Assembly: GCF_002896855.1 (NCBI RefSeq)
Contig: NZ_CP021850.1
Span: forward strand, 1,513,665-1,577,664
Source of the DNA: Clostridium thermosuccinogenes
GTDB taxonomy: Bacteria; Bacillota; Clostridia; Acetivibrionales; DSM-5807
Length of the DNA: 64,000 bases
Reading direction: 5' to 3'
Below, one piece after another: positions 26,213-46,405 of this stretch (position 1 is its first letter; every line of letters starts with the position of its first letter). A model generated the notes under the pieces. It saw nothing but the letters and a program-made list of their open reading frames with translations. It did no database searches and was not told the origin of the DNA. Position numbers and translations under genes: made by a program.

Positions 26213-27349
26213 TTGAACGATGCCAGAGGCTTTTATCAATTTATGAAACGAATGGGATTGTTTATGGAAGACTTTATGAAAAACGCTTCTTATATTATCG
26301 ACCAACATGGGTCTTACTGGAAGGGCTTTGATTTTCGCTTAAGGTGCATAATCCTTGCTGTTTCGGTGATATGCTCTTTTACTTCAGAAGTCAGGATATT
26401 CACCGGATACGGCACATTCATATTATCGGCAGTTTTTTTCCTGTATTGGTTGCTGAGCGTACTGTATTTGACGAAGTCAAAGGGCAATTTTAAAAAAGCG
26501 CTGAGAGTAGTCTCGTACTTTGATATTGCGATGATTTCCTTCCTATGCTACTGCACCGGTGGAATAGGTTCCGACGGTTATGTGGTGTACTTTTTTATCA
26601 TAGGCATCATAGGCATTCAAAACAGCCCTGCTCCGACTATAAAAGCAAGTATTTTTGCGGCTGTGACTTATACGCTCGCAGCATTGTTGTCCAAAAGCGT
26701 TATGGGGATGAAGGATTTCTGGAGGTTGGGCTTAAGGGTCTTCTATATCTTTGCCTTATGTGCTGCAGTTTTGAGGATTTATCGAGAAATAAGGAAATAT
26801 GAAGAACTGCACAAAAGAGAATTTAAGCTGGCCAGAACGGACAAGCTGACAGGCCTCGCAAACCGGCGCTATTTTGAGCAGAAGCTGGCCGAAGAGGCAA
26901 GATATTCCGATGCATCCGGCAAGCCAGTGAACATATTGATCTTTGATATAGACAATTTCAAGAAATTCAACGACACTTATGGTCATATTTTTGGAGATAA
27001 ACTCCTGGAATTGTTTGCGGATATCATCAAGAAGAATATAAGAAAATCAGATATCCCCATAAGATATGGGGGAGAAGAATTTTTGATACTGATCCGGGAC
27101 CTTGATAAAAAAACCGCCCGTAATGTTGCTGAAAGGATTAGAAGCCAGCTGGAAAAGCAGTGCATAGTTTTAGTGGATTCTACCAACGAAAGCAAAATGA
27201 TGACGGTAAGCTGCGGATTATCCCAGTATCCTGAGGATTCAAAAGACATCAGTGAAGTGGTTAAGTTTGCCGATATGGCTCTTTACAGGGCAAAACAGAC
27301 AGGTAAGAACACAGTGGTAAGTTATGATGAGATTAATAACAAAGTGTGA
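26213..27349 (+). CDS. Membrane-bound diguanylate cyclase (GGDEF domain)
   Basis: The first about 200 residues contain five to six hydrophobic spans with no recognised sensor family. The C-terminal half is a GGDEF domain: KLARTDKLTGLANRRYFEQ, ILIFDIDNFKKFNDTYGH, and the active-site RYGGEEF (286-290). An RxxD inhibitory I-site is present as RKSD five residues before GGEEF, so product feedback is expected. The protein should make cyclic di-GMP from two GTP. The start is uncertain: TTG 26213 and ATGs at 26243 and 26264 are possible, none with a strong ribosome site. An HD-GYP phosphodiesterase and a c-di-GMP riboswitch lie 18 kb away. Confidence 0.92.
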   Translation: MNDARGFYQFMKRMGLFMEDFMKNASYIIDQHGSYWKGFDFRLRCIILAVSVICSFTSEVRIFTGYGTFILSAVFFLYWLLSVLYLTKSKGNFKKALRVVSYFDIAMISFLCYCTGGIGSDGYVVYFFIIGIIGIQNSPAPTIKASIFAAVTYTLAALLSKSVMGMKDFWRLGLRVFYIFALCAAVLRIYREIRKYEELHKREFKLARTDKLTGLANRRYFEQKLAEEARYSDASGKPVNILIFDIDNFKKFNDTYGHIFGDKLLELFADIIKKNIRKSDIPIRYGGEEFLILIRDLDKKTARNVAERIRSQLEKQCIVLVDSTNESKMMTVSCGLSQYPEDSKDISEVVKFADMALYRAKQTGKNTVVSYDEINNKV

Positions 27350-28882: not shown

Positions 28883-29160
28883 AAAAAACTCCTCATCCAC
28901 AAGGGACGAGGAGTTATAATCCACGCGGTACCACCCAACTTGGCAAAAGCCCACTTTGATGTACGAGACTTTCGTCTGATACATTCTTTCTTGTAACGGT
29001 GAAAGTGTCCGGCGCAGCCTACTGCAATTTCAGCCTGCAGCTCAAAGGAGAACTTCAATTATATGGCTTTTACAGGCTTTCACCCTTTCCTGCTCGCTTT
29101 TAAAAGCCGGGTATAATCTACTTTTCCTTTTCATCGCTTTTGAATATCATACTTTTTAAT
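28883..29160 (-). promoter_or_regulatory. T-box leader controlling the DAHP synthase gene
   Basis: Read on the minus strand, the leader has a stem I base (AAAGGA with TCCTTT), a loop-E-like AGTA opposite GAA, AG-bulge-type sequences in the apical part, then the conserved T-box GGGTGGTACCGCGTGG (complement of 28921-28936). An intrinsic terminator follows, ACTCCTC/GAGGAGT with six T (28883-28915). Uncharged tRNA pairing with the UGGN bulge should stabilise the antiterminator. The specifier side strand reads GAAGTTC. TTC (Phe) is the only aromatic codon available there and fits the downstream pathway; that assignment is inference. Confidence 0.92.
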
Positions 29161-44912: not shown

Positions 44913-44965
44913 ATCCATGTAGTGCTCAATACTCACAAATCCGATAGTACTACAGGATTTTTTTT
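44913..44965 (+). terminator. Terminator-like hairpin upstream of the riboswitch
   Basis: ATCC-GTAGTGCT (44913-44926) pairs with AGTACTAC-GGAT (44946-44958) with a small internal bulge and one mismatch, followed by eight T. It lies on the plus strand ahead of the riboswitch, so it would end a short transcript of about 80 nt from a start near 44880. Confidence 0.6.
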
Positions 44966-44984
44966 CCATGATCTATTTAAAATG

Positions 44985-45124
44985 CTTATGAAAAGGGTAA
45001 ACCTGCCGAAAGGCAGGGGCACAAAGCTGCGGGTCTAAGGTGTTGCACTATGACAGCCGGGCTACCATAGCATGACATGCATGTATATACTATTGTCATG
45101 GCTTTGGTTTAGCCATGACTTTTT
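44985..45124 (+). promoter_or_regulatory. Class I cyclic-di-GMP riboswitch (GEMM-I) with terminator
   Basis: The aptamer core matches the GEMM-I consensus in order: AAAGGGTAAACC (about 44992-45003), a stem capped by a GAAA tetraloop (CCTGCCGAAAGGCAGG, 45002-45017), GGCACAAAGC, GGGTCTAAGG, and TGACAGCCGGGCTACC (about 45050-45065). The expression platform is GTCATGGCT (45095-45103) paired with AGCCATGAC (45111-45119) and five T. CATGAC at 45071-45076 can compete for GTCATG, giving a plausible ligand-dependent switch. The downstream gene encodes an HD-GYP c-di-GMP phosphodiesterase. The on/off direction cannot be told from sequence alone. Confidence 0.92.
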
Positions 45125-45247
45125 GTTTAACGTTGGGATAACGGGGTAATTAAATTTAGCAAAAGCATATGCAATAGCTAAAGCTTACAGTCTAACCAAC
45201 TATGGGCTATCATTCATGATATACGACATAACAGGGAGTGTAGGAAT

Positions 45248-46405
45248 TTGCGTCTGGTACCAATTAATAGTGTAAAAGAAGGATATTTTCTGGGAAAGAC
45301 ATTGTATGATACCAGCGGCAGGGTACTGCTCAAGCAGGGTACCCGCTTTAATAAAATGCTGATTGAAAGCGTTAAGAAGGCTGGAATTCAAAAGATTTAT
45401 ATAAACGATGAGTTTAGTGACAGTGAGATTGAAGACATAATAAAACCGGAAATAAAAATCAAAGCAGTAAAATCTGTTAAGGATTTATTCAGCCACGTAA
45501 AGAAAAAGGAAAAGGCATATAGGACAAAAGCAGGCAGTCTAGGAAGCAGTTCTCTGCTTAGAATCCAGGATGAGCAGATAGAAGATGTGCAGGAGGTTTC
45601 CAAGTCGATAGTTGAGGATGTTTTGTCCAACAGCAATACATTGATCAATCTTGTGGACATAAAAACTGCCGATAATTACACCTACGAGCATTGTGTAAAT
45701 GTAGCGGTGCTGTCTCTGGTGCTGGGTATCGAAATGGGTCTTAATCAAAAGCAGCTCAGCGACCTTTGTGTCGGAGCACTTTTGCACGATATAGGAAAGG
45801 CGTTTACACCTACCGAAATACTGACAAAACCTGACACCCTGGATGATGCGGAGTTTAACATCATTAAGAAGCATCCCGTGGACGGATATGAATACATAAA
45901 AGATGATAATAACTTAGCTTCCGCCGTTAAGGTTATTGTGCTGGAACATCACGAAAAGGTGGATGGAACAGGTTACCCCAGGGGCTTAAAAGGCGATCAG
46001 ATACACAAGCTGGCAAAGATCATTTCCGTCGTTGACGTATACGATGCGTTGACATCTGACAGACCATACAGAAAAGCGGTTTCTCCCAGTGAAGCATTGG
46101 AGTTGATAATGGGAAGCGCCGGAAGGCATTTTGATTTTGAAACAGCTCAGGCCTTTGTTAGAAGGGTGGTACCTTATCCGATAGGGACTTTGGTCAGGCT
46201 CAGCAATGGAGATGTCGGAGTGGTGGAAAGCATAAAACCTAATTTCCCACTGCGTCCTACCGTAAAAGTAATAAGACAGAATGCGGTAGATGTGGATATT
46301 GAGGTGATTGATCTCATGAAGGAGAACAGCTTGGTTATTGAAGGCATACAATATGATTATCCGAACCTGTCGATTCCTTATTATCTGAAACATGCGAAAG
46401 CATAA
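45248..46405 (+). CDS. HD-GYP domain cyclic-di-GMP phosphodiesterase
   Basis: The 385-residue soluble protein has an N-terminal region (RLVPINSVKEGYFLGKTLYDTSGRVLLKQGT) common in HD-GYP proteins with DUF3391-like heads, then an HD-GYP domain: His180-Asp181 in ALLHDIGKAFTP, KKHPVDGYEYI, LEHHEKVDGTGYPRGL with GYP at 242-244, and DVYDALTSDRPYRKAV. A C-terminal extension (PIGTLVRLSNGDVGVVESI) follows. Such enzymes hydrolyse cyclic di-GMP. The start is TTG at 45248 with GGGAGTG 8 bases upstream. A c-di-GMP riboswitch precedes the gene, so its substrate should control its expression. Confidence 0.93.
   Translation: MRLVPINSVKEGYFLGKTLYDTSGRVLLKQGTRFNKMLIESVKKAGIQKIYINDEFSDSEIEDIIKPEIKIKAVKSVKDLFSHVKKKEKAYRTKAGSLGSSSLLRIQDEQIEDVQEVSKSIVEDVLSNSNTLINLVDIKTADNYTYEHCVNVAVLSLVLGIEMGLNQKQLSDLCVGALLHDIGKAFTPTEILTKPDTLDDAEFNIIKKHPVDGYEYIKDDNNLASAVKVIVLEHHEKVDGTGYPRGLKGDQIHKLAKIISVVDVYDALTSDRPYRKAVSPSEALELIMGSAGRHFDFETAQAFVRRVVPYPIGTLVRLSNGDVGVVESIKPNFPLRPTVKVIRQNAVDVDIEVIDLMKENSLVIEGIQYDYPNLSIPYYLKHAKA

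Follow-up and report, generated by a model that had tools for sequence, protein, structure and literature searches.

A GEMM-I riboswitch ahead of an HD-GYP gene in Clostridium thermosuccinogenes: a probable OFF switch on a predicted c-di-GMP phosphodiesterase

Introduction

In Clostridium thermosuccinogenes, a single gene for a predicted HD-GYP phosphodiesterase is probably under the control of a Cd1-type transcriptional OFF riboswitch. GEMM-I RNAs bind c-di-GMP and HD-GYP enzymes degrade it. Most riboswitches serve to hold the level of a metabolite steady. At this locus the messenger would repress its own destroyer, which would make a self-reinforcing loop out of one RNA and one gene. The locus lies within a stretch of 64,000 nt of genomic DNA (the window). 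It was compared with a survey of 58 genomes of the order, which covered 134 strong GEMM-I loci; 130 further GEMM-I regions came from the other genomes, and four strong loci belong to the own genome.

The aptamer and its ligand

The window holds only two Rfam matches, the GEMM-I aptamer and a T-box leader (28899-29143, minus strand, 113.6 bits). The initial annotation had named a GEMM-I aptamer core with a GAAA-capped stem at this place and had proposed a covariance search with the Rfam model as a check. That search returned a full-length match (model positions 1-87) that scored 83.1 bits (cut-off 35, E 7e-15), and RF01051 scored above its own clan relatives.

44986-45069 (+): c-di-GMP-I (GEMM-I) riboswitch aptamer, RF01051, with G44997, A45024 and C45065 at the predicted contact positions

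Both the GAAA-capped stem and the CAAAG linker are there. The contact positions were mapped by hand onto the Vc2 structure, which makes G44997 the equivalent of G20, A45024 that of A47 and C45065 that of C92. On this mapping the contact nucleotides (G/A/C) are of the c-di-GMP type and not of the A20 cGAMP type or the GGC/UAU variants, and the ligand is presumably c-di-GMP. A sigma-70 promoter scan 5' of the aptamer gave no convincing candidate. Two features of the same flank were spotted by eye only: a TTGACA at about 44858, and a weak hairpin (AATCC...GGATT, 44942-44967, plus strand) followed by a T run just 5' of the aptamer, which might terminate a short transcript or be a product of chance.

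Competing hairpins in the leader

Four strands of the leader are named here after those of the published Cd1 riboswitch. P and A form P1, A and T form the antiterminator, and T and H form the terminator.

44982-44990 (+): P, the P1 5' strand (AUGC-U-UAUG), pairing with 45066-45073 (8 bp, one bulge, -7.0 kcal/mol)
45064-45077 (+): A (ACCAUAGCAUGACA), the P1 3' strand and also the antiterminator 5' strand
45094-45108 (+): T, the antiterminator 3' strand, which includes the terminator 5' arm 45095-45103
45111-45119 (+): H, the terminator partner of T
45095-45119 (+): intrinsic terminator hairpin (9 bp, -14.8 kcal/mol, z -5.7), followed by TTTTTGTTT

The terminator reads GTCATGGCT-TTGGTTT-AGCCATGAC-TTTTT, and none of 200 shuffles was equally stable. 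It starts 25 nt past the end of the aptamer, so the two can coexist; they do not overlap and both form in one fold. The antiterminator hairpin (45064-45108, 13 bp, -13.5 kcal/mol) shares one strand with P1 and another with the terminator 5' arm, and the A strand accordingly has two partners, 44982-44990 in the bound fold and 45094-45108 in the free fold. Taken alone, the antiterminator of the window is only modestly better than chance, with 241 of 5000 shuffled linkers (about 5%) as good, and 9 of 200 in a second test.

P1 lies outside the Rfam model and was therefore tested on 114 single-copy GEMM-I loci. The 5' flanks of these loci pair with their own 3' flanks better than with those of other loci (p 4e-9), and the P1 of the window ranks 2 of 113 against the 3' flanks of other GEMM-I loci. 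Ensemble folding by transcript length gave a ligand-free leader with the antiterminator formed at about 0.9 between 45108 and 45118. When P1 was given a hand-set ligand bonus, the terminator displaced the antiterminator (0.93 at 45118 and about 1.0 beyond). The two hairpins are near balance when the free leader is folded at full length, so that the order of folding would have to set the free state.

Direction of control

The locus had initially been annotated as a feedback loop of undecided sign. Its parts, including the terminator hairpin and an HD-GYP gene with intact HD and GYP residues, prove to be real and correctly named, and the coordinates and the read-through point at 45124 are accurate. 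The loop is the natural reading of these parts. As to its sign, the compatibility of aptamer and terminator and the strand shared by P1 and the antiterminator point to OFF, a direction in which we have fairly good confidence at this locus. Because the aptamer tolerates the terminator and the antiterminator uses the P1 3' strand, the ligand would induce termination, and the feedback would therefore be positive (double-negative) rather than homeostatic.

At low c-di-GMP, the nascent leader would fold the antiterminator and capture the terminator 5' arm; RNA polymerase would read through, the hydrolase would be made and c-di-GMP would stay low. At high c-di-GMP, the ligand would bind the aptamer ahead of antiterminator transcription and lock P1 (44982-44990 with 45066-45073). 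The terminator would then form, the hydrolase gene would be off and c-di-GMP would stay high. From this double-negative loop we infer bistability, as such a loop tends towards two stable states, or towards sharp switching, more than towards homeostasis. If the OFF direction is confirmed, the locus would offer a compact and testable model of how cells commit themselves to either a biofilm or a motile way of life, along with a bistable part ready for use.

The direction was also scored across the order. In all seven leaders of turnover genes that have a clear terminator, the aptamer fold frees the terminator 5' arm, which is the OFF direction. With the bound state imposed through pairing penalties, each of the seven exceeded the shuffled-leader average, and together they gave a combined Z of 4.1. 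The window's own score is weak (z 0.34) because its pairing is mostly in the linker.

The opposite sign, an ON riboswitch in which c-di-GMP prevents termination and induces the hydrolase in a homeostatic negative feedback, is the intuitive arrangement. It has precedents among class I riboswitches in Bc2 of B. thuringiensis and Vc2 of V. cholerae (PMC6366702, PMC12564702), and at several loci of the order the terminator 3' arm could pair with the 3' end of the aptamer. We nevertheless consider it rather unlikely in the window, where terminator and aptamer share no nucleotides. The two structures are mutually exclusive in the published ON example, pilM, whereas here they are compatible; moreover, the antiterminator uses the P1 strand, so ligand binding removes the antiterminator. 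A comparison of terminator 5' and 3' arms against aptamer 3' ends at 56 loci gave no common direction, and the OFF reading is therefore not extended to the GEMM-I riboswitches of the order as a whole. Loci L004, L095, L117, L131, L141, L142, L170 and L187 carry a CCTGCC-type terminator in an ON-like layout; at these loci the terminator 3' arm, not the 5' arm, is the better complement of the aptamer 3' end.

The HD-GYP gene and its product

The gene under the predicted control starts 178 nt 3' of the aptamer on the same strand, with no gene between. A terminator lies behind it, and the transcript is therefore probably monocistronic.

45248-46405 (+): predicted HD-GYP domain c-di-GMP phosphodiesterase, TTG start, 385 aa; Pfam HD_5 116 bits, HD 77.5 bits
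46405-46438 (+): terminator behind the HD-GYP gene, hairpin of -14.7 kcal/mol, z -5.0, none of 200 shuffles as stable

The nearest solved relatives of the protein are HD-GYP enzymes, with 4mcw the best (E 1e-34) and 5z7c next. Of these, 4mcw is a c-di-GMP hydrolase and 5z7c a cGAMP phosphodiesterase. Aligned to 4mcw, the motifs are H148, H180-D181 (LLHDIGK), H209, H234-H235 (HHEKVDGTGYP) and D263, and the core HD and HHExxDGxGYP residues are all intact. The third-metal glutamate, a subtype feature, is absent: the residue aligned to E185 of PmGH is Y144. A two-metal site is likely for this reason, and since two-metal HD-GYPs exist, Y144 bears on the subtype and not on the family. The product is predicted from its residues to hydrolyse c-di-GMP.

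We know of no way to read the substrate specificity of an HD-GYP domain from sequence. With 5z7c among the nearest solved relatives, Y144 at the metal-ligand position, and five other HD-GYP matches and three EAL genes in the genome, an intact riboswitch might stand before a protein that is not a cellular c-di-GMP hydrolase, be it a cGAMP- or pGpG-specific enzyme or a non-enzymatic effector, and there would then be no feedback loop, just conventional regulation by a riboswitch. We regard this as unlikely: the catalytic core is complete, the best solved relative is a c-di-GMP enzyme, the aptamer contact positions appear to be of the c-di-GMP type, and GEMM-I switches of the order adjoin hydrolase genes of several unrelated lineages.

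GEMM-I riboswitches on turnover genes across the order

Of the 134 strong GEMM-I loci, nine lie ahead of a gene for c-di-GMP turnover, and all nine of these genes encode a hydrolase domain (HD-GYP or EAL).

HD-GYP-linked loci (7): L003 (the window locus), L069, L089, L101, L104, L124, L185
EAL-linked locus: L001
GGDEF-EAL-linked locus: L092

A cyclase-only gene follows GEMM-I at none of the 134 loci, for which about 1.7 kb downstream was covered (L147 extends beyond the end of its region). About 0.2% of genes are HD-GYP genes, and seven in 134 loci is about 25 times the expectation (P about 2e-8 when loci are treated as independent). A tree of the HD-GYPs requires about six label changes to account for the riboswitch-linked ones. 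At least two of these changes are forced by well-supported branches, and the placement of the long rows is uncertain. The best-matching relatives of the L104 protein are that of L185 and the second HD-GYP of the C. thermosuccinogenes genome, at 46-47% identity, so that association may date far back within a single lineage. A search of the genome contigs for orthologs of the window's HD-GYP protein found one distant HD-GYP only; the C. thermosuccinogenes genome is the only member of its family among those compared. We give roughly even chances to the broader proposal that GEMM-I OFF switches of the order were placed repeatedly, and largely independently, on hydrolase genes of different lineages (HD-GYP, GGDEF-EAL and possibly EAL). 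If true, such repeated placement would amount to a positive-feedback module that relies on RNA alone and fixes cells in a high or a low c-di-GMP state.

The own genome measures 4.73 Mb and carries four strong GEMM-I loci: that of the window, L001, one before a LytTR regulator and one without a clear gene. L001 (C1:2211010-2214109, minus strand) precedes a gene for a 243-aa EAL protein, directly downstream of which a GGDEF-EAL gene lies on the same strand. It has no clear T-run terminator, so its control may be translational. About 9 kb before the start of the window, a GEMM-I-like element below the cut-off (34.7 bits; L005, 1501-1596; C1:1504645-1504728) sits between metG and the second HD-GYP gene, 590 nt upstream of the latter. 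It retains the GAAA-capped stem and CAAAG, is altered in P2 and at the 3' end, and is either a decayed copy or a variant. Although this degenerate copy stands 5' of an HD-GYP gene in the same genome, and five class I copies without a downstream gene are described as non-functional in C. difficile (PMC6200980), it is very improbable that the window's aptamer is a relic or yields only a terminated small RNA with the gene unregulated, given its 83.1 bits, conserved contacts, good P1, terminator with competing hairpin and sense-strand gene 178 nt downstream with none intervening.

Other c-di-GMP elements were noted as well. The window contains a GGDEF (diguanylate cyclase) domain at 26831-27310 on the plus strand (G000:C1:1540495-1540974). 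A search for c-di-GMP-II gave no matches in the own genome, and none in the control genomes either. In other genomes of the order, 37 GEMM-I loci have aptamers that begin TATGAAACAGGGCAAA (L106, L110, L118-L120, L128, L134, L137-L140, L144-L146 and others). They share a common tail (AAAGTTCTGTTTATACTCTT ... GGAAATAGGTC...ATTTCCTTATACC, then a T run), and their largest nearby ORF is on the opposite strand in 31 of 37 and on the same strand in 2 of 37. This family resembles a free-standing small RNA that binds c-di-GMP.

Comparison with known systems

The arrangement is of a kind already known from reviews (PMC12564702, PMC6366702), and its loop sign is known from PdeL (PMC5052742). No experimental work on a GEMM-I riboswitch placed before an HD-GYP gene turned up in a literature search that included few subscription journals. 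The new element may be that such riboswitches are used repeatedly on hydrolase genes, and with a predicted OFF sign.

A close mechanistic parallel is Cd1, in the flgB leader of C. difficile. Its aptamer and terminator can form together, in competition with an antiterminator, through strands P, A, T and H (PMC9262584), and it is an OFF switch (PMC9262584, PMC6366702). All functional class I switches of C. difficile are OFF (PMC6200980, PMC6366702). Like Cd1, the window's leader has a GEMM-I aptamer, a compatible intrinsic terminator downstream and an antiterminator that competes for a P1 strand, and folding order would decide its ligand-free state. Cd1 controls a flagellar operon, whereas the product of the gene here is an enzyme that is predicted to break the ligand down.

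GEMM RNAs upstream of some diguanylate cyclase and phosphodiesterase genes go back to Weinberg and Sudarsan, as cited in a 2025 review (PMC12564702). Those cases share with ours a c-di-GMP-I aptamer ahead of a turnover gene, and they are described as a genomic association. GEMM control of c-di-GMP turnover genes is rare according to a 2019 review (PMC6366702), a view that contrasts with the approximately 25-fold excess of HD-GYP genes in this order. In C. difficile, the transcript of the GGDEF-EAL phosphodiesterase CD630_07570 falls 5-fold as c-di-GMP rises; unlike the window locus, it is not reported as riboswitch-controlled in the excerpt that describes it (PMC6200980). The sign of the predicted loop is that of E. 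coli PdeL, where c-di-GMP lowers the expression of a phosphodiesterase and the resulting positive feedback gives a steep switch (PMC5052742). PdeL is an EAL-domain protein that itself works as a transcription factor, whereas at the window locus the sensor would be an RNA and the enzyme an HD-GYP protein.
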